This document shows positions 48,471 through 60,810 of a DNA stretch of 64,000 bases, one piece after another; position 1 is the first letter of the stretch; each line of letters opens with the position of its first letter. Under the pieces are notes generated by a model. That model searched no databases. It had not been told where the DNA came from and saw only the letters and a list, made by a program, of their open reading frames with translations. Source of the DNA: Rhizobium sullae (GTDB lineage: Bacteria; Pseudomonadota; Alphaproteobacteria; Rhizobiales; Rhizobiaceae); assembly GCF_025200715.1 (NCBI RefSeq), contig NZ_CP104143.1, forward strand, positions 1 to 64,000, read 5' to 3'. The translations under genes were made by a program, and so were the position numbers.

Positions 48471-49421
48471 TCAATCGCGGCCAACCTGCCAAACTGAAAC
48501 GAGCCCGTCAAGGAGCAACTTTTGTGGCAGAATTCCCTCGATGTCCTGGCTCCTCACGAGATCACCATAGCCGAGCAGAGCTGCGAGCCTGGAAACAGCC
48601 CCCGCAAGCAGAAAAGGCGTGGTGCTCGTCTTGTCCCAGTCAACGACCGGAAGGTTTTTGCCGACATCCCGCGTAGCGAGATAATTGCGGATCTCCGGAT
48701 CGCCGCCGACCTGGTCGATGAGCTTGACCTTCGCCGCCTGGCGGCCGGTGAAAATAGTGCCGTCGGCGAGCTTCAGCACCTCGTCGCGCGGCAGTTTGCG
48801 GCGGTCGGCAACAAGGTCGACGAACCAGGCGTAGCTGTCCATGACCATATTATTGATCATGGTTTTCGCCTCTTCACTGGCAGCATGGAAGGGCGATGGC
48901 TCTGCCTTCAGCGGCGACGACTTGATCTCTTGCAGCGAGACGCCGAGCTTGTCGAGCAGCGGCTGGATCTGCGGATACTGAAAGATCACGCCGATCGAAC
49001 CTGTGAGCGAGCTTTCGCCGGCAATGATCGTGTCGCCGGCGGCCGCGATCATATAGCCTGCAGAAGCGGCAAGCGTCCGGACATCGGAGACGACCGGCTT
49101 CTTCACAGCAATCGCCCGGATGGCCTTGAATATCTTTTCGCCGCCATACGTCGTGCCGCCCGGCGAAGAAATGGAGACGATGACGCCTTTGACCCGGTCG
49201 TTCTCTTCGATCTTCTTCAGCCTCTCAAGCAACTCGTCGTCGTCGGTTATGAGGCCGGAAATCGTCACATGGGCGATGTGCGGCCGCTGTGTGGCGATGT
49301 CGCCTGCGATGAATTGGTAGAGAGCAAAGCCGAGCGCGACCAAGAGTACCACCGCCGCAATGCGCCAGAAGCCGAGTTTGCGGCGAAGCCTGCGGCGATC
49401 AGCGATCGTCGAACTGTCCAT
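48471..49421 (-). CDS. sppA: Signal peptide peptidase SppA, short form
   Basis: A 316-residue inner-membrane serine protease that degrades cleaved signal peptides. An N-terminal anchor (residues 18-39) precedes the protease domain, with catalytic Ser120 (AASAGYMIA) and Lys172 (SSPLKAEPSP), 52 residues apart as in short SppA proteins. ESSLTGSIGVIFQYP and DGTIFTGRQAAKVKLIDQVGG are family motifs. The start at 49421 has GGAGG five bases upstream. Confidence 0.94.
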   Translation of the reverse strand: MDSSTIADRRRLRRKLGFWRIAAVVLLVALGFALYQFIAGDIATQRPHIAHVTISGLITDDDELLERLKKIEENDRVKGVIVSISSPGGTTYGGEKIFKAIRAIAVKKPVVSDVRTLAASAGYMIAAAGDTIIAGESSLTGSIGVIFQYPQIQPLLDKLGVSLQEIKSSPLKAEPSPFHAASEEAKTMINNMVMDSYAWFVDLVADRRKLPRDEVLKLADGTIFTGRQAAKVKLIDQVGGDPEIRNYLATRDVGKNLPVVDWDKTSTTPFLLAGAVSRLAALLGYGDLVRSQDIEGILPQKLLLDGLVSVWQVGRD

Positions 49422-49633
49422 AAAGTCCTCCAGAGCCGGCACGCCGGCTTCATGCAACATGGCATCAGATAAGGTGGCATTCCCCTTCGGAAATCCCGGT
49501 TTACTTCATTTTCATGCCTTATTTGCTAGTTGCAGAAAAAAATCCATATTGGCAAGCTAGTGTAATAATGCGAAACGATCTGTGATTGGCGGGCATAGTT
49601 CCTATATAGGGTTGCCGATCAACAGACACGGAT

Positions 49634-50305
49634 ATGTTAATGCTCAACACATTGAACAGCAGCGGGAAGCCTGCCTTTGTCAGGCCCGTACAGAGCGCCT
49701 ATACGGCCGCGCTCTTCCATTCTGCACGTGTCCGCCGCTTGAAGATATTGCTGCCTATCGCTGCTGTCACCATTTCGCTTGTCTTCATTGCGGTCTCGAT
49801 GGTCCGGGCTTACCTGCCCGAGAACCTCAAGATCGAAGGCGCCAAGATCGAAAACGGCAAGATCGTCATGGAAAAGCCGGCGATCGCCGGCCGTAATGCC
49901 GACGGCATCAACTATTCGATGCTTGCCGAGCGCGCGCTGCAGGACATCAAGAATCCGAACCTTATCACGCTCGAAACGATCAAGGCTGCGGTGCCGGTCA
50001 GCGATGATCTGATCGCCCGCGTCGAGGCTGCCACGGCCGATTATGATCGATCCACGGACAACCTTGCTCTGAGAGACCCATTCACGATTTTGCTGAGCAA
50101 CGGTCTGACGGCGAAATTTCAATCTGCCAAGCTCGATATCAAGGGCGGCAAAATGACAACGGACGACCCTATCGAGATTCAAAAAGACGGCGCTTCGATT
50201 GTTGCGCAGTCGCTCAAGATGACGGATAAGGGGCGCGTGATCACATTCGAGGGGAACGTTCGCATGAATGTCGATCCATCCGTCATCCGTAAACAGGGCA
50301 CCTAA
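49634..50305 (+). CDS. lptC: LPS export system protein LptC
   Basis: A 223-residue bitopic inner-membrane protein: one helix (residues 36-58, LKILLPIAAVTISLVFIAVS) and a periplasmic domain (GINYSMLAERALQDI, ALRDPFTILLSNGLTAKFQS). It accepts LPS from LptFG and passes it to LptA. The alphaproteobacterial form is divergent, so the call rests also on lptA and lptB directly downstream. The start could be ATG 49640 instead. Confidence 0.88.
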   Translation: MLMLNTLNSSGKPAFVRPVQSAYTAALFHSARVRRLKILLPIAAVTISLVFIAVSMVRAYLPENLKIEGAKIENGKIVMEKPAIAGRNADGINYSMLAERALQDIKNPNLITLETIKAAVPVSDDLIARVEAATADYDRSTDNLALRDPFTILLSNGLTAKFQSAKLDIKGGKMTTDDPIEIQKDGASIVAQSLKMTDKGRVITFEGNVRMNVDPSVIRKQGT

Positions 50306-50319
50306 CAGCCGGGTCACTC

Positions 50320-50925
50320 ATGACAATAGATTGTCACTTTTCAATTCGTAAGTCAGGCGTAACATTTGCCCGTAGCGCGATAGCGCTTCTGCTAGTGGCA
50401 GGGGCGGCCTTTGCACAGGCGACCACCAGCCAGATGGATGGCCTGAAGCTCGACAGCAATCAACCGATCCAGATCGAAAGCGACAAGCTCGAGATTCAAG
50501 ATCAGGAGCACAAGGCCGACTTCACCGGCAACGTAAAAGTCGTCCAGGGGAAGACGACCTTGCAGGCCGGTCATATGACGGTCTTCTACAAGGCAAAGGC
50601 AGGTGACTCGCAGCCAGCCGGCGCGAAGACTGACGCTGGAGCGGCGTCGATCTCGTCCGGCAATGCCGACATCGACCGTATCATTGTGACCGATAAGGTT
50701 TTCTTGAGCTCCGGCACGCAGACGGCAACCGCCGACAACGGCTCCTTCGATATGGCACAGCAGCTCTTCGTTCTGAAGGGCGACAAGGTTGTACTGTCGG
50801 ATGGCCCGAATGTCTTCACAGGCTGCCAGCTCACCGTTTACATGCAGACGGGACGGGCGCAACTGGATAGCTGCGGGGGGCGCGTCCAGATTCAGCTTGA
50901 TCCAAAATCCCAGAAAAAGAACTGA
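50320..50925 (+). CDS. lptA: LPS transport periplasmic protein LptA
   Basis: A 201-residue secreted OstA-family protein: signal peptide (FARSAIALLLVAGAAFAQA), then LDSNQPIQIESDKLEIQDQEHKADFTGNVKVVQGKTTLQAGHM (in parts) and FVLKGDKVVLSDGPNVFTGCQLTV. It bridges the periplasm between LptC and LptD. It starts 14 bases after lptC and is followed by lptB after 15 bases. Confidence 0.93.
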   Translation: MTIDCHFSIRKSGVTFARSAIALLLVAGAAFAQATTSQMDGLKLDSNQPIQIESDKLEIQDQEHKADFTGNVKVVQGKTTLQAGHMTVFYKAKAGDSQPAGAKTDAGAASISSGNADIDRIIVTDKVFLSSGTQTATADNGSFDMAQQLFVLKGDKVVLSDGPNVFTGCQLTVYMQTGRAQLDSCGGRVQIQLDPKSQKKN

Positions 50926-50940
50926 AACCGGCCTCCCGAC

Positions 50941-51753
50941 GTGAAATTATTCTCGCTTTCAACCATGTTCGGCAAGGCCGGGCCGCAATCGGGCGCGGAC
51001 TCTGCCGCTGGCGGCGACAAGAGCCGTTACAACGGCACGCTGATTGCACGCGGTCTGACGAAGACCTATAGCACACGGCGTGTTGTCAACGGCGTCTCGC
51101 TGGTCGTTAGGCGCGGCGAAGCTGTCGGCCTTCTGGGACCGAACGGTGCCGGCAAGACAACCTGCTTTTATATGATCACCGGTCTCGTGCCGGTGGACGA
51201 AGGCACGATCGAGATCGATGGCAATGACGTGACGACGATGCCGATGTATCGCCGGTCGCGTCTCGGTGTCGGCTACCTGCCGCAGGAGGCCTCGATCTTC
51301 CGCGGCCTGACGGTCGAAGAGAATATCCGCGCCGTGCTGGAAGTGCATGAGAAGGACAAGACGGAGCGGGAGAAGAAGCTCGACGAGCTTCTGGAGGAAT
51401 TCCATATCGCCAAGCTGCGAAAATCGGCGGCTGTCGCGTTATCGGGCGGTGAGCGCCGGCGTCTGGAAATTGCCCGCGCACTTGCGACCGATCCGACCTT
51501 CATGCTGCTTGACGAGCCTTTTGCTGGCGTCGATCCCATTTCGGTCGCGGACATCCAGAACCTCGTGCACCATCTGACGGCACGCGGCATCGGCGTTTTG
51601 ATCACCGACCACAATGTGCGCGAGACGCTGGGCCTCATCGATCGAGCCTATATCATCCATGCCGGCGAAGTGCTGACGCATGGCCGCGCGAACGATATCG
51701 TCAACAATCCGGAAGTGCGCCGGCTCTATCTTGGTGACAAATTCAGCCTTTGA
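50941..51753 (+). CDS. lptB: LPS export ABC transporter ATP-binding protein LptB
   Basis: A 270-residue ABC ATPase that drives LPS extraction. Walker A GPNGAGKT is at residues 66-73, the signature LSGGERRRLEIARAL and Walker B FMLLDEPFAGVDP follow, and the H-loop is ITDHNVRETL. The start is GTG 50941; an ATG eight codons later is possible. The N-terminus is about 30 residues longer than in E. coli. In rhizobia this gene lies directly upstream of rpoN, as here. Confidence 0.96.
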   Translation: MKLFSLSTMFGKAGPQSGADSAAGGDKSRYNGTLIARGLTKTYSTRRVVNGVSLVVRRGEAVGLLGPNGAGKTTCFYMITGLVPVDEGTIEIDGNDVTTMPMYRRSRLGVGYLPQEASIFRGLTVEENIRAVLEVHEKDKTEREKKLDELLEEFHIAKLRKSAAVALSGGERRRLEIARALATDPTFMLLDEPFAGVDPISVADIQNLVHHLTARGIGVLITDHNVRETLGLIDRAYIIHAGEVLTHGRANDIVNNPEVRRLYLGDKFSL

Positions 51754-51817
51754 TAGGATCGAAGGCGACGGAAATTCACCTTCCTGTCATACTTGCGCTT
51801 GACCAAATAGAATAAAT

Positions 51818-52930
51818 CTCGACGATTTTGTTGCCGGCCAGGTCTCTCTCAGAGATCACCTCGCGCAGCAGATTCCATTCATCCTGCCGGATGCAGGTGA
51901 CCGGCTGATCGCGCAGCAGTTAATCGACCAGCTCGACGAGGCGGGTTATCTGCAGAGCGACCCCGCCGGCATCGGTGAAAGACTGGGCACCGATCCTGCG
52001 GCCGCCGAACGTGTTCTTGCCGAGTTGCAGACCCTCGATCCGCCTGGCGTCTTTGCGCGCACCCTGGCCGAATGCCTGTCGATCCAGCTCAAACAGAAGG
52101 ATCGCTTCGATCCTGCCATGCAGGCCCTCGTTTCCAACCTCGAATTGCTGGCACGGCGCGACTTCGCGACGCTGAAGCGGCTTTGTGGCGTGGACGAGGA
52201 AGACTTGCTTGATATGCTTTCGGAGATTCGCCAGCTGAATCCGAAACCCGGCAGCGGCTTTGAGACCAGCTTTTCCGAAGCGATCATGCCGGATGTCGTC
52301 GTGCGTTTGTCATCTGATGGAAGTTGGCTGGTAGAGCTGAACCCGGATACGCTCCCGCGCGTGCTCGTCAATCAGTCCTATTTTGCCAAGGTTACAAAGA
52401 ACGGCGGCGATTACGCATTCTTGTCCGAATGCCTTCAGAGCGCCAACTGGCTCACGCGCAGTCTCGATCAGCGCGCGAAGACCATCATGAAGGTGGCAAG
52501 CGAGATCGTCCGCCAGCAGGACGCCTTCCTGATGCATGGCGTCGATTACCTGCGCCCGCTGAATTTGAAGACGGTCGCCGATGCCATCAAGATGCATGAG
52601 TCGACCGTCAGCCGCGTCACCTCGAATAAGTACATTCTGACGCCGCGCGGCCTCTTCGAACTCAAATATTTCTTCACGGTTTCGATCAGCGCGGTGGAGG
52701 GCGGCGACAGCCATTCTGCTGAGGCCGTTCGCCACAGGATCCGCTCTCTGATCATGCGGGAAAGCCCGGATGCTGTCCTCTCCGACGATGACATTGTCGA
52801 TATGCTGAAGAAGGACGGCATCGATCTGGCTCGCCGTACGGTTGCAAAGTACCGCGAGGCGATGAATATCGCGTCCTCCGTTCAGCGGCGGCGCGAAAAG
52901 CGGGCATTGGCGAAGGTTGCCGGCTTTTAA
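51818..52930 (+). pseudogene. rpoN: 5'-truncated rpoN (sigma-54), regions I and II missing
   Basis: The frame codes for about 370 residues of sigma-54 beginning LDDFVAGQVSLRDHL and running to the normal C-terminus. Present are the core-binding part (DAGDRLIAQQLIDQLDEAGYL, LQTLDPPGVFARTLAECL), the helix-turn-helix (LKTVADAIKMHESTVSRV) and the RpoN box ARRTVAKYRE (52829-52858). Rhizobial RpoN is about 510-525 residues; roughly 150 N-terminal residues, that is the Gln-rich activator-contact region I and acidic region II, are absent. The frame opens at 51803 after a TGA, and no in-frame ATG, GTG or TTG occurs before TTG 52025, in mid core-binding domain. lptB upstream and hpf-ptsN downstream show this is the chromosomal rpoN locus. 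Either a dead gene or a deletion allele. Confidence 0.85.
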
Positions 52931-52976
52931 AATCCGAGCTAAATCAACCCTTGATATTCGCGCCGCGGCGCACCCG

Positions 52977-53005
52977 TTGACATTTCGATCGTCTACCGCT
53001 AGAAG
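52977..53005 (+). promoter_or_regulatory. Candidate sigma-70 promoter upstream of hpf
   Basis: TTGACA at 52977-52982 and TAGAAG at 53000-53005 are 17 bases apart, a good -35 / weak -10 housekeeping promoter. It lies just past the rpoN stop codon and 170 bases before the hpf start, so hpf and ptsN could be expressed without reading through the broken rpoN. Confidence 0.45.
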
Positions 53006-53174
53006 CCCGCCGCAATTGGCGCTGTGAACAGCGTTTGGACTTATCCCCATCATCCTCAGGGCGCTTGGAGCACGCGACTTAAGCCGATCTTGCTTGAGTC
53101 TACGTGAAGTGCTTGGATGAGGTGTGGCGTTGGCGTAAACTGGTACCGCAAACCACTATAAGAAGGGAAACTCG

Positions 53175-53750
53175 ATGAGTGTGCGTGTATCCGGTAAACA
53201 CATGGAAATTGGGGACTCGTTCCGTCAAAGGATCGAGGACCAAATGGACATGGCCATCACGAAATACTTTGACGGGGGCTATTCCGGTCAGGTGATTGTG
53301 GAGAAATCGAGTTCGCGCTTCTCTGCCGATTGCAAGCTTCATCTCGACAGCGGGGTGGTGTTGCATGCGGCAGGCGAAGCGATGGACCCGCAGCTCGCAT
53401 TCGATGCAGCTTCGGAGCGCATCGAAAAGCGTCTCCGCCGCTACAAGCGCAAGCTCAAGGATCATCATGCCGGAAACCATCTGAATGGGTCTGCGGAAGT
53501 CGCCTATACGGTCATGGACGCGGTCCCGGATCATGAAGAAGAGGTTCCCGACGATTTCGCCCCGGTCATTGTTGCCGAGAGCACGAAGCAGTTAAAAACC
53601 ATGTCCGTCGCGACCGCCGTGATGGCGCTCGATATGACGGATGAGCCGCTGCTTCTGTTCCGTAGCCCGGGTAAGGAACATTTGAACATCGTTTACCGCA
53701 GGCATGACGGCAATATTGGCTGGATCGACGCGGCCAATATCAAGAGCTGA
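53175..53750 (+). CDS. hpf: Ribosome hibernation-promoting factor, long form
   Basis: A 191-residue HPF. Residues 1-105 are the ribosome-binding S30AE domain (VRVSGKHMEIGDSFRQRIED, DAASERIEKRLRRYKRKLKDH), and a C-terminal dimerisation domain (residues 135-190, TKQLKTMSVATAVMALDM, IVYRRHDGNIGWID) marks the long form that makes 100S dimers. It always follows rpoN in Proteobacteria, which helps identify the truncated gene before it. Confidence 0.95.
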   Translation: MSVRVSGKHMEIGDSFRQRIEDQMDMAITKYFDGGYSGQVIVEKSSSRFSADCKLHLDSGVVLHAAGEAMDPQLAFDAASERIEKRLRRYKRKLKDHHAGNHLNGSAEVAYTVMDAVPDHEEEVPDDFAPVIVAESTKQLKTMSVATAVMALDMTDEPLLLFRSPGKEHLNIVYRRHDGNIGWIDAANIKS

Positions 53751-53820
53751 CATCCGGGCGATGAGCGGCGGGGACGCCGCTCTCCCGATCATCCGGTTTC
53801 GGCGACAGAAGGAAAAAGAA

Positions 53821-54285
53821 ATGGCATTGGCAGATCTGCTGCACCAAGATGCGATCATTCCGGCCCTAAAGGTAAATTCGAAGAAACAGTTGCTTCAGGA
53901 ATTGGCGGCAAAGGCCTCCAAAATCACCGGCCTTTCCGAGCGGGAAATTTTCGACGTCGTTCTGCAGCGTGAGCGTCTCGGCTCGACGGGTGTCGGCAAT
54001 GGTATCGCCATTCCGCACGGCAAGCTTGCCAGCACCCGCTCGATTGTCGGTGTCTTTGCGCGGCTGGAAAGTCCAGTCGATTTCGAAGCGCTTGACGACC
54101 AGCCGGTCGATCTGGTGTTTCTGCTTCTCGCTCCGGAAGGGGCGGGCGCAGACCATTTGAAAGCGCTGTCGCGCATTGCGCGGGTGCTTCGTGATCACGA
54201 TCTCGTCGCGAAGCTGCGCGCCACTGATTCCGCATCGGCGATTTATGCCTTCCTCAACGAAGAGCAAGCATCCAACGCTGCCTGA
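53821..54285 (+). CDS. ptsN: Nitrogen-regulatory PTS protein EIIA(Ntr)
   Basis: A 154-residue EIIA-type protein with phospho-accepting H66 (GNGIAIPHGK). MALADLLHQDAIIPALKVNSKKQLLQELA (in parts) and ERLGSTGVGNGIA are typical. It relays phosphate from the PTS-Ntr branch and controls potassium and ABC transport in rhizobia. I chose ATG 53821; the open frame runs 39 codons upstream through hpf. A terminator follows. Confidence 0.95.
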   Translation: MALADLLHQDAIIPALKVNSKKQLLQELAAKASKITGLSEREIFDVVLQRERLGSTGVGNGIAIPHGKLASTRSIVGVFARLESPVDFEALDDQPVDLVFLLLAPEGAGADHLKALSRIARVLRDHDLVAKLRATDSASAIYAFLNEEQASNAA

Positions 54286-54308
54286 GCGGCGGACGATCGT
54301 CTAAAATA

Positions 54309-54342
54309 AAAAGAGGCGCCCGGTTGTCCGGACGCCTCTTTT
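54309..54342. terminator. Bidirectional intrinsic terminator between ptsN and the chemoreceptor gene
   Basis: AAAAGAGGCG and CGCCTCTTTT form a 10-bp stem with A and T tracts on the outer sides and a 14-base loop that can pair further (CCGG/CCGG). It lies 23 bases past ptsN and 20 bases past the end of the convergent chemoreceptor gene. Confidence 0.9.
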
Positions 54343-54362
54343 GATCAGTGCCGAGCCCTGCC

Positions 54363-56705
54363 TCAGAACTCTTCCCAGTGGTCCTGCGCAACGGCAGCCG
54401 AACCGTGCGACTGTGGCACAGCTCGGCGCGGGGCGGGAGCCGGAGAACGGTAGGTCGGCGCCGGAGTTGCAGGGGCGCGCATTTGCTGTGCCGCCGAGCG
54501 CAGCGCCGTGGCGTTTCCCTGACCAGACACACGGAAGCGAAGGACGAGGGCCTTCAGCGTCTGCGCCTCGTCGTTCAGCGCAACGCTGGCTGCTGTCGCC
54601 TCTTCGACCATTGCCGCATTCTGCTGGGTCACCTGGTCCATCTGGTTCATGGCCTGGTTGATTTCCTTGAGGCCGATCGCTTGCTCACTTGCGGAGGCTG
54701 AGATCTGGCGGATGAGACCGTTGATGCCCATCACCTGCTCGGCGATCTTATGCAGCGTACCCCCGGCCCGGCCGACGAGATCGACGCCTTCCTTGACCTG
54801 GATGGCCGAGGTATTGATGAGCGTCTTGATTTCCTTGGCTGCATTTGCAGAGCGTTGGGCCAGCTCGCGGACTTCCTGAGCAACCACAGCGAACCCCTTA
54901 CCCGCTTCACCGGCGCGCGCCGCTTCGACGCCTGCGTTGAGCGCCAAGAGGTTTGTCTGGAAGGCGATTTCATCGATGACACCGATGATGCGAGAGACCT
55001 CAGTCGATGACTGCTCGATGCCGTGCATGGAGGCGATTGCCTTTTGCACCACCTCGCCGGATTTTTCTGCGTCTTCGCAGGCGAGATTAACGTTGTCGGC
55101 GGCCGTCCGCGCATTGTCGGCACTCGAATTGACCTGAGCGGTCAACTCGTTGAGCGCGGCGGCGGTTTCTTCCAGGCTTGCCGCCTGCTGTTCCGTGCGC
55201 TTGGCAAGATCCGAGGCGCTGTTGCTGATTTCGCTGGTGCCGGAGCCAATGTTCACGACGCTGAGGTTCATCGTGTTGATCGTCTCTTCAAGGCTGGCAA
55301 GCGCAGCGTTGAAATCCTGCTTCAGCTTGTCGTACTCGCCGGGGAACGCCTCTGTGATGCGATGGCCGAGGTTGCCCTGCGATAGTTCGGAGAGCCCGGC
55401 ACCGACGATGGAAACGATCTGGCGCTGCAGCGCGACCGACTCCTGCCGCTCGCTTTCAGAACGGTTGCGTTCAGTTTCGGCGGCCCTGCGCTGATTGTCA
55501 GCCTCTGCTTCGAGCCGTTGCGTATCGGCAAGCGCAAACCGGAATCCTTCGAGGGCTTTGGCGACGGAACCGATTTCGTCCGCGCGGTCCTGACCGGTGA
55601 CCGGCTCTTCATACTTGCCGTCGCTAAGCGCTTTGACACTCGCAACGAGCGAGCCAAGAGGCTTTTGCACGAAAGAGCGGACGGCAAAATAGAGAGCCAG
55701 CATGACGGCACCGAGGACAACAATGCCACCGGCGATCATCATGAAGGTTTGATCGCGCACTGGTGCGTTAATGGCGCTGTGGGGAACATCGACGAGCACG
55801 GCCCACGTTGCATGAAGATCCGGCACGGCAAACGGATAAACGACGCGGTCGAAAGGTTCATAGCCATCAAGGGAGAGGTTACGAACCACACCTGATGTCA
55901 TCGAGGCTAGCGCTGTCTTAACTTCGGCCGCACCTTCGCCGTCGCCATAGGGTTTCGACATCAGTTCTTTCGTCGGCGCCACGATCCAGTTGCCGTTTTG
56001 CGCAACGAGGGTGACGCGACCCGAACCGAAGGGATGCAATGCCTGCAGTTTGTCGGTGAGGGATTTGAGCGAGATGTCGACGCCTTCGACACCAATCATC
56101 TTGCCGCCGGACATGACGGGATAGGCGATGGAGGTCAGCAGCGTTGGAACATCGGTGCCTTCGGCGAGATAGGGTGAGGTGATGGCGCCCTTGCCGCTTT
56201 CGGCCGCAAGTTTCCACCATTCCGCGGCATAATCGTTGTCGAAGGTCGAAAACTGGATGGCGCCTTCCCTCGTCTTCGACCAATAGGGCGTAAAGGCGCC
56301 GTTCTTGTTCGTGCCCTCATCGAGCTTATCGGCGATCTCGGTTGTTTTGCCGTCGAAGGCGCCGAGCTGTTCACAGAACCAGCTTCCGAAGGCAAAAGCA
56401 TTCTGCTCAAGGTTAGCTTTGAGGATGTTTACGATGCCCTTGCGGTCGAAGGTCTTGCCTTCGTGACCGCGGCCGACGACGCCCGACATCGAGCGCGCGG
56501 CGCTCGCCAACTCGCCTACATTTGCAGCGATCTCGTTGGCAATTGATTTCGCCTCGAGATTGGCTTGGTCCATCGTCAGCATCTGAACGCGATCGCGCGT
56601 TTGGTCGATCAGGAAGAGGTTGGAGATCAGCATCACAAGCGCGATGGCCACGCCTGTAATGAGGATGAGCTTTGCGGCAAGCGACTTCATGCGGAAGATG
56701 GACAT
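54363..56705 (-). CDS. Methyl-accepting chemotaxis protein with dCACHE domain and WEEF tail
   Basis: A 780-residue membrane chemoreceptor. TM1 is residues 10-33, a double-CACHE ligand domain spans about 40-315 (FDNDYAAEWWKLAAESGKGAITSPYLAEG in parts, ISLKSLTDKLQ), TM2 about 322-348, HAMP about 350-400, and the signalling tip [27 protein letters not shown] is near 577-605. The last residues HWEEF fit the xWxxF tail that tethers CheR and CheB. I chose ATG 56705, twelve codons into the open frame. The ligand is unknown; dCACHE domains often bind amino acids or organic acids. Confidence 0.92.
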   Translation of the reverse strand: MSIFRMKSLAAKLILITGVAIALVMLISNLFLIDQTRDRVQMLTMDQANLEAKSIANEIAANVGELASAARSMSGVVGRGHEGKTFDRKGIVNILKANLEQNAFAFGSWFCEQLGAFDGKTTEIADKLDEGTNKNGAFTPYWSKTREGAIQFSTFDNDYAAEWWKLAAESGKGAITSPYLAEGTDVPTLLTSIAYPVMSGGKMIGVEGVDISLKSLTDKLQALHPFGSGRVTLVAQNGNWIVAPTKELMSKPYGDGEGAAEVKTALASMTSGVVRNLSLDGYEPFDRVVYPFAVPDLHATWAVLVDVPHSAINAPVRDQTFMMIAGGIVVLGAVMLALYFAVRSFVQKPLGSLVASVKALSDGKYEEPVTGQDRADEIGSVAKALEGFRFALADTQRLEAEADNQRRAAETERNRSESERQESVALQRQIVSIVGAGLSELSQGNLGHRITEAFPGEYDKLKQDFNAALASLEETINTMNLSVVNIGSGTSEISNSASDLAKRTEQQAASLEETAAALNELTAQVNSSADNARTAADNVNLACEDAEKSGEVVQKAIASMHGIEQSSTEVSRIIGVIDEIAFQTNLLALNAGVEAARAGEAGKGFAVVAQEVRELAQRSANAAKEIKTLINTSAIQVKEGVDLVGRAGGTLHKIAEQVMGINGLIRQISASASEQAIGLKEINQAMNQMDQVTQQNAAMVEEATAASVALNDEAQTLKALVLRFRVSGQGNATALRSAAQQMRAPATPAPTYRSPAPAPRRAVPQSHGSAAVAQDHWEEF

Positions 56706-56853
56706 GGGTTCCTCGGCAATGGCGACGCACCGGAGGCGCATTCTCCGGCACGGGGAGGAAATGCCGCGCCGTCATGGAGCAGCCGTAACGTGCCAGGCCC
56801 TTCGAGAAAAGCCAGACGATCAAAAGAAAGATCGCCGGAAATCCCTTAAATTT

Positions 56854-59313: not shown

Positions 59314-60810
59314 ATGACCAGCCAGCAATCCGCAAATGCCCTCAAGCAGCGCCTCGATTTCATCGAACTCGATAGCGAGGCGCGCAGGACGATACGCGAG
59401 TTGCGGCCGGTGATCGGCGAACTGATCGGCGGCGCACTGGATAAGTTCTATGGAAAGATCGCTAGGACGCCCGCGGTCGCCGGCTTCTTTTCTGACAAGG
59501 CACATATCGGCGGTGCCAAGAAGCGCCAGGAGGATCACTGGGCAAACCTCGCCGGGGGCAATTTCGATGAAAGCTATGTGAATGGCGTTACCGCCGTCGG
59601 CAGCGCCCATGCCCGGATCGGGCTCGAACCGCGCTGGTATATCGGCGGTTATGCGATCGTCATCGCGGAACTCGTCAAAGGCATTATGGAAAAGCAGTGG
59701 CCGTCACGCTTCGGCCGTCAGCAGGGCAAGGCGCTTGCCGAAAAGCTCACGTCGGTCATCAAGGCCAGTATGCTCGATATGGATTATTCGATCTCTGTCT
59801 ATCTCGATGCGCTGGAAGAGAAGCGGCGCAAGCTTGAAGAGGAGCGAGCCAAGGCCGAAGCCGATCAGGCGATTGCGCTCGAGCACCTGCGCCGCGGCTT
59901 GGAAGCTCTTTCAAAGGGCGATCTCGAAGCAACGTTGCCGGCCAATCTGCCGGCCAATTTTCGGCACATGGCGGAGGATTATAACCGCGCCGCCGCGGCC
60001 CTTCGCGCCTCCTTCGCATCGGTGCGCAACAGTTCCGGCGAAATCTTGAGCGGCACGGACGTAATTTCCAAGGCGACCGACGATCTGGCGATGCGCACGG
60101 CGCAGCAGGCGGCCGGCATTGAGGAGAGCTCCGCTGCGCTCCAGCAGCTCTCCGTCAGTGTTGGCCAGACCGCAGCAAACGCTGAGAAGGCATCCGGTGC
60201 GGTGCGCGAGACGCAGGAGAAGGCGAAGAGCTCAGGGGATCTCGTGACAAGCGCGGTGTCGGCCATGGCGGGCATCGAGAAGTCGTCTGCCGAGATAGCC
60301 AAGATCATCGGCGTCATTGACGAAATCGCCTTCCAGACGAACCTTCTGGCACTTAACGCCGGCGTTGAGGCCGCGCGTGCCGGCGAGGCGGGCAAGGGCT
60401 TTGCCGTCGTCGCACAGGAAGTGCGTCAGCTCGCGCAGCGCACTGCCGATGCAGCCAAGGAGATCAAGAACCTGATCTCGGAAAGCTCCATCCAGGTGAA
60501 CGAAGGCGTCGGCATCGTCAGCAGTACCGGCGAGGCACTTAGCGATATGATCAGCCGCATCGACATCATCAACCGCTTCGTCGCAGATATCGCAGCGGCG
60601 GCGCGTGATCAGGCGACAGGTGTCAACGAGGTCAGCATTGCGATCCGCAACATGGACACGATCACGCAGCAGAACTCGAGCATGGTAGAACGTACCTCGG
60701 CAGAGACACGTCACCTGCGCGCGGAGGTTGATACCCTCGTGGCGCTGCTGCAGCGCTTCAATATCCGCTCGCAGGAGCGCCAGGCGCCGGCATCCCGCCG
60801 CGCAGCCTGA
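59314..60810 (+). CDS. Globin-coupled soluble chemoreceptor (HemAT-like aerotaxis transducer)
   Basis: A 498-residue cytoplasmic receptor with no transmembrane helix. Residues 10-155 form a globin-coupled sensor domain; H99 in [18 protein letters not shown] is in the place of the proximal heme ligand of HemAT. A short coiled coil (about 160-185) and a HAMP-like stretch lead to the MCP domain with tip [27 protein letters not shown] (about 340-366). The tail RRAA lacks a CheR pentapeptide. The likely job is sensing oxygen for aerotaxis, as shown for similar rhizobial heme receptors. Confidence 0.9.

Follow-up and report, generated by a model that had tools for sequence, protein, structure and literature searches.

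Organisation of the chromosomal rpoN locus

The window, a stretch of 64,000 nucleotides, forms the first part of contig 1 (4,138,475 bases) in a four-contig Rhizobium sullae genome of 7,595,929 bases, which is taken here to be that of strain WSM1592, the commercial Sulla inoculant. Its gene order lptC-lptA-lptB-rpoN-raiA-ptsN is also the annotated order in the Sinorhizobium locus L121 (CP090106.1). L121 is named as pSymB of S. meliloti Ak57; as the same cluster is chromosomal in the window genome, this replicon label may be wrong. The nearest named locus, L004 (R. sullae NZ_FWER01), comes from a genome of about 7.9 Mb in 320 contigs (G061/G166), taken to be that of the type strain IS123T, and at this position carries an intact rpoN whose open frame spans 545 codons. 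In the window, the chromosomal gene (rpoN1) is represented by a remnant, and the region contains the following features.

50941..51753, forward strand: lptB, the intact upstream neighbour, from the open reading frame (ORF) list, named from synteny and in the original prediction
51754..51816, forward strand: rest of the lptB-rpoN intergenic region, matching L004 as far as its base 2484
51799..51804, forward strand: TTGACC, the -35-like left end of a conserved block with a putative promoter function
51816..51817, no strand: junction of a 518-base deletion, its two sides overlapping by one base
51803..52930, forward strand: rpoN1 remnant, an open frame of 375 codons with two Pfam domains and the RpoN box ARRTVAKYR
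52025..52930, forward strand: longest ORF with a usual start (TTG) in the rpoN1 frame, 301 codons
53175..53750, forward strand: raiA/hpf-like gene, the intact downstream neighbour, an ORF named from synteny with L121
53704..54285, forward strand: ORF holding a ptsN-like gene, true start probably internal, named from synteny with L121

The rpoN1 frame is closed by TGA at 51800-51802 and is then open from 51803 to 52930 with no internal stop. Pfam searches of the remnant recovered the core-binding domain PF04963 (E = 1.3e-55; profile positions 3-185 of 185, from residue 7) and the DNA-binding domain PF04552 (E = 7.2e-68; profile positions 3-160 of 160). The activator-interacting domain PF00309, which corresponds to region I, gave no match in the remnant at E values up to 0.001, and its single match in the whole genome lies on contig 3. 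Region II, named by position relative to Escherichia coli sigma-54, also appears to be missing.

These observations bear out the original prediction. It had placed only 64 bases between the end of lptB and the conserved LDDFVAG motif, and the stop at 51753 and the motif start at 51818 leave a gap of exactly 51754-51817. The estimate that some 450 coding bases are missing agrees with the intact conspecific gene, in which 142 codons (from ATG) or 150 codons (from TTG) precede LDDFVAG. Ahead of 52025, where no in-frame ATG, GTG or TTG had been claimed, a codon scan gave only ATA, ATT, ATC and CTG. Finally, the remnant is uninterrupted through the RpoN box, and the core-binding profile matches nearly from its start.

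Comparison with a conspecific genome

Alignment with related rpoN loci, which had been proposed alongside the original prediction, revealed an intact gene in the conspecific genome and a single 518-base deletion in the window strain. Positions 49333-51816 of the window align with L004 1-2484 at 99.8% identity, and positions 51816-55917 align with L004 3002-7113 at 99.4%. The clean 518-base deletion is the sole large difference; small ones include an 11-base gap at 52954, past the gene end, and a one-base length difference from IS123T just past the rpoN stop codon. Joining the two L004 flanks reproduces the window bar one substitution in 139 bases. The lost segment runs from the middle of the promoter-like block to about codon 143. 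It takes in the right half of that block, the leader including the ribosome site, and then the start codon, either an ATG or a TTG eight codons before it, along with 142-150 codons, roughly the first quarter of the gene; by Pfam, these codons include region I. Separately, window positions 60304-60511 match the complement of L004 5978-6185 at 78%; the L004 stretch corresponds to part of the large window ORF at 54363-56741, and the match probably reflects a domain common to two related genes.

A repeat-driven deletion was rejected, as no direct or inverted repeats of at least 10 bases pair the two deletion ends in the intact locus. Relocation of the missing piece was also rejected: L004 2485-3001 matches the window genome only at two stretches of rpoN2, at 75-76%.

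The coding part of the remnant differs from IS123T by two substitutions, both of which are synonymous and, by comparison with five other loci, derived in the window strain. With so few changes in the coding remnant, the deletion is young. Two substitutions are too few for testing selection on the remnant. The original prediction had read the clean frame as a sign of either a recent deletion or selection; recency is upheld, and selection is not required, because the left deletion end is non-coding, the event is young and any right end would keep the downstream frame open.

Distribution of rpoN length in Rhizobium

Chromosomal rpoN was surveyed in 148 Rhizobium genomes, that of the window included, with the best-matching copy in each taken as the chromosomal one. 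A full-length gene is present in 146 of the 147 other genomes. Among the matches listed, the best copy in 140 others lies in an open frame of 521-573 codons, compared with 375 codons in the window genome. The frames in G004 and G010 span 561 and 532 codons, and in G112, G113, G158 and G171 region I was found in frames of 540-554 codons. In G011, two pieces stop two bases from the edges of their contigs, whose lengths are 3,309 and 34,140 bases; region I matched twice on contigs other than these, in frames of 157 and 148 codons. The two contigs with the pieces (C150 and C115; L116 and L117) carry two chromosomal-type rpoN copies (90% and 87%) with the same break codon, as if the assembler had collapsed a part that the copies share.

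None of the 146 assessable Rhizobium genomes besides that of the window shows a similar truncation; recurrent truncation of rpoN was not seen in the genus in this survey. The deletion is seen in the window strain only, with one other R. sullae genome compared.

A conserved promoter-like block before rpoN

An almost invariant 35-base block, in which TTGACC and AATTTT are separated by a 17-base spacer, precedes rpoN in 77 of 80 related loci. These loci were taken by similarity and are mostly from Rhizobium; for some, the name goes no further than Rhizobiales or Rhizobiaceae. The block ends in GCAATTTTTGGGCC, and in locus L063 in GCAATTTTCGGGCC. It is missing in L025, L035 and L055, and the assemblies of L025 and L035 are also listed with another locus. 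The block also occurs before S. meliloti-type and Shinella rpoN. Its opposite strand presents a -24/-12-like site with GG-N10-GC spacing. The block is a candidate for both the promoter and an autoregulatory site of rpoN. Negative autoregulation has been reported for R. leguminosarum rpoN in PMC3538637.

The deletion leaves TTGACC (51799-51804) in place and removes AATTTT together with the reverse -24/-12-like site. Pattern searches that allowed up to two mismatches found the block twice in IS123T, before rpoN1 and rpoN2, and once in the window genome, before rpoN2; at this threshold it is absent from the window strain's chromosome. The reversed-pattern control gave no match in either genome.

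The plasmid copy rpoN2

A genome-wide search for a complete rpoN, plasmids included, had been suggested with the original prediction and recovered one such gene, rpoN2, on contig 3. This 0.47-Mb plasmid (470,679 bases) also carries nifA and nifH.

Contig 3, 149615..151156 (if started at ATG), forward strand: rpoN2, a 541-codon open frame
Contig 3, 164968..166623: nifA, about 14 kb from rpoN2
Contig 3, 279619..280443: nifH, complete

On contig 4, a partial nifH at 132174-132557 (L137) covers 128 of 275 profile positions and falls under the family cut-off.

RpoN2 is the only complete sigma-54 found in the genome; PF00309, PF04963 and PF04552 are all present within 533 residues (Pfam), and the RpoN box is present as well. 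Its neighbours are transposase- and recombinase-like ORFs, and it lies away from lptB, raiA and ptsN. Roughly 6 kb upstream, a 1,756-codon ORF of repeated segments occupies L114 7602-12872 (contig 3, 138601-143871, minus strand). The RpoN2 protein is 100% identical in IS123T, and the rpoN2 DNA region is 99.84% identical over 3,689 bases (BLAST). Since the protein is identical in the strain with an intact rpoN1, the second copy is most likely older than the deletion.

In the rpoN tree, for which the L122, L140 and L143 rows kept extra front residues and in which some branches are long, rpoN2 groups with the Sinorhizobium genes L121 and L140 (support 98/93), apart from the Rhizobium chromosomal genes. 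The R. etli-type copy L123 forms a long branch whose placement is unsure. The block before rpoN2 has the same spacing as the chromosomal type and ends in CA instead of CC, a change that would weaken the reverse -24 element. Simple patterns detected neither a NifA-type TGT-N10-ACA site nor a -24/-12 site in the 2 kb before rpoN2. This test is weak because the same kind of pattern is likewise absent from the 320 bases before R. etli-type L123, and PMC3538637 describes transcription of R. etli-type rpoN2 as starting at an operon promoter ahead of prxS. The original prediction's comparison with the plasmid rpoN2 of R. etli needs correcting, as the R. sullae copy groups with Sinorhizobium and bears a chromosomal-type block.

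Requirement for sigma-54

NifA acts together with sigma-54. The genome encodes eight proteins that strongly match the enhancer-binding AAA+ domain, four of them on the chromosome, and the GAFTGA motif was found in five of the eight. Chromosomal NtrC and NtrX and the NifA of contig 3 pass their NCBIfam cut-offs; none of the best 25 families does so for the remaining five. Four weak matches (E = 6.2e-5 to 6.6e-4) were set aside because the family also matches in all 14 control genomes. As the genome keeps eight strong enhancer-binding proteins, a working sigma-54 is to be expected. WSM1592 is described as a highly effective nitrogen fixer in PMC4572446.

A probable recent null allele beside a second copy

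The evidence favours the reading that chromosomal rpoN is a recent null allele, tolerated because plasmid rpoN2 supplies sigma-54. A rough probability of 0.80 is assigned to it, lowered from 0.82 because controls for ribosome pairing (given below) weaken one of its arguments. A single recent 518-base deletion has joined the middle of the promoter-like block to about codon 143. The remnant would be null, since it has lost its usual start codon and ribosome site along with half of the block. Loss of RpoN1 would be tolerated because RpoN2 presumably works with enhancer-binding proteins encoded on either the chromosome or the plasmid. Given negative autoregulation and the reverse -24/-12-like site, loss of RpoN1 could also raise rpoN2 expression; against such derepression, the CA ending of the rpoN2 block would weaken the reverse site. 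Also counting against the reading, the frame of the remnant is open and both of its changes are synonymous, a pattern that selection could equally produce.

The original prediction had offered two interpretations. The first, a pseudogene of recent origin in a strain that has another rpoN, is well supported by the clean deletion, the intact conspecific copy and the complete plasmid gene. Nothing speaks positively for the second, an odd short sigma-54, since the deletion that removed region I also took the start codon, the ribosome site and half of the block.

Redundancy between the two copies is not to be assumed, because R. etli and M. loti require chromosomal rpoN1 in free life despite a second copy, as PMC3538637 reports. 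A related alternative accepts the null allele and proposes that RpoN2 acts in symbiosis only, which would make WSM1592 in effect sigma-54-negative in free life. The division of labour described in the same source, with rpoN2 symbiotic and rpoN1 serving C4-dicarboxylate use in free life, agrees with this proposal, as does the location of R. sullae rpoN2 about 14 kb from nifA on a plasmid that also holds nifH. Nevertheless, it is unlikely: WSM1592 rpoN2 falls outside the R. etli copy group and has a chromosomal-type block, and the weak pattern test detected no NifA-type or -24/-12 site in the 2 kb before it.

There is little probability that the deletion is an assembly error or was present in only part of the sequenced culture. 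The published WSM1592 assembly did use one assembler, according to PMC11837538. However, section 7 of that paper describes the closed genome as a Nanopore assembly polished with both Nanopore and Illumina reads, and the deletion ends share no repeat pair of at least 10 bases, with a junction overlap of one base.

Expression of the remnant, by read-through and a rare start, as a sigma-54 lacking regions I and II that acts independently of activators or competes with RpoN2 for promoters and core polymerase, is very improbable. The remnant does keep the core-binding and DNA-binding domains in an open frame with no non-synonymous change relative to IS123T, and lptB transcripts could read through into it. 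Sigma-54 without region I bypasses activators in vitro, according to PMC4551910. In the E. coli data of that source, however, bypass by this form was not clear at the pspA promoter under standard conditions, and RNA-seq at 42 degrees showed eight sites with low-level activity, although glnAp2 at that temperature reached nearly half of wild-type activity. The absence of a comparable truncation from the other judgeable Rhizobium genomes is a further argument against it, as is the loss of expression signals: the ribosome site is gone, along with half of the promoter-like block.

Predicted ribosome pairing at the first usual start, TTG 52025, is -1.9 kcal/mol, compared with -6.9 kcal/mol at the intact ATG and -6.7 kcal/mol at rpoN2. 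Control starts gave -1.7 (lptB), -3.7 (lptA) and -5.6 kcal/mol (raiA); because the genuine lptB start scores only -1.7 kcal/mol, pairing is a weak argument against translation. Some CTG or ATC codons within the remnant reach -6 to -8 kcal/mol, among them CTG 51905 (-7.6 kcal/mol) and CTG 51950 (-7.8 kcal/mol), both of which fall within the core-binding domain. A stronger argument comes from the lack of any usual start ahead of that domain: the in-frame scan of the remnant found none that would preserve it, and the ORF from TTG 52025 would begin within it. That the remnant, translated from a rare start on lptB read-through RNA, yields a natural sigma-54 without region I that serves a few activator-free promoters or holds RpoN2 promoters closed merits minimal credence.

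Implications and comparison with known systems

Gene loss beside a second copy is an ordinary mechanism, here with a useful biological consequence. The commercial Sulla inoculant looks like a natural knockout of chromosomal rpoN, with its one complete sigma-54 encoded on the symbiosis plasmid. If the null-allele reading is correct, chromosomal sigma-54 functions, including nitrogen control, would depend on an accessory replicon, and the strain would allow a direct test of whether a Sinorhizobium-type second rpoN can stand in for the native one in free life. In nitrogen and dicarboxylate traits, WSM1592 may behave unlike other R. sullae strains.

The main texts of the WSM1592 paper (PMC4572446) and the IS123T paper (PMC5526965) contain no mention of rpoN, and the single mention in the main text of PMC11837538 concerns strain SRDI969. 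No description of the present case was found in the portions covered of the literature on the chromosomal rpoN of Rhizobium and its truncation or loss; within them, work on truncated rpoN covers a Neisseria case and a cloned fragment in Burkholderia.

The Neisseria case offers one comparison, as pathogenic Neisseria likewise carry a naturally truncated rpoN, and in one N. meningitidis strain a truncated rpoN transcript was found and no protein detected, according to PMC6755734 and PMC2784325. There, the damage affects the DNA-binding end, whereas R. sullae has lost the front end and the expression signals and retains a complete second copy. The laboratory sigma-54 without region I, as presented in PMC4551910, resembles the remnant in having core-binding and DNA-binding domains and no activator-interacting domain. 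In contrast to that form, which is expressed from a cloned promoter, the R. sullae remnant is without expression signals of its own and without the stretch up to region III.

Closer relatives are the two-copy rhizobia. R. etli, M. loti, B. japonicum and N. galegae sv. orientalis likewise combine a chromosomal rpoN with a second one, which in several of these rhizobia lies in a symbiosis region. The copies of B. japonicum are described as interchangeable, whereas those of R. etli and M. loti are split by life stage. R. sullae WSM1592 departs from this group in that its chromosomal copy is broken, and its second copy is of the Sinorhizobium-grouped kind with a chromosomal-type block. Sinorhizobium L121 rpoN, found beside lptB, shares with R. 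sullae rpoN2 both the tree group that includes L140 and the 35-base block at the same spacing. Unlike L121 rpoN, R. sullae rpoN2 stands apart from lptB, raiA and ptsN, and its block ends in CA rather than CC.
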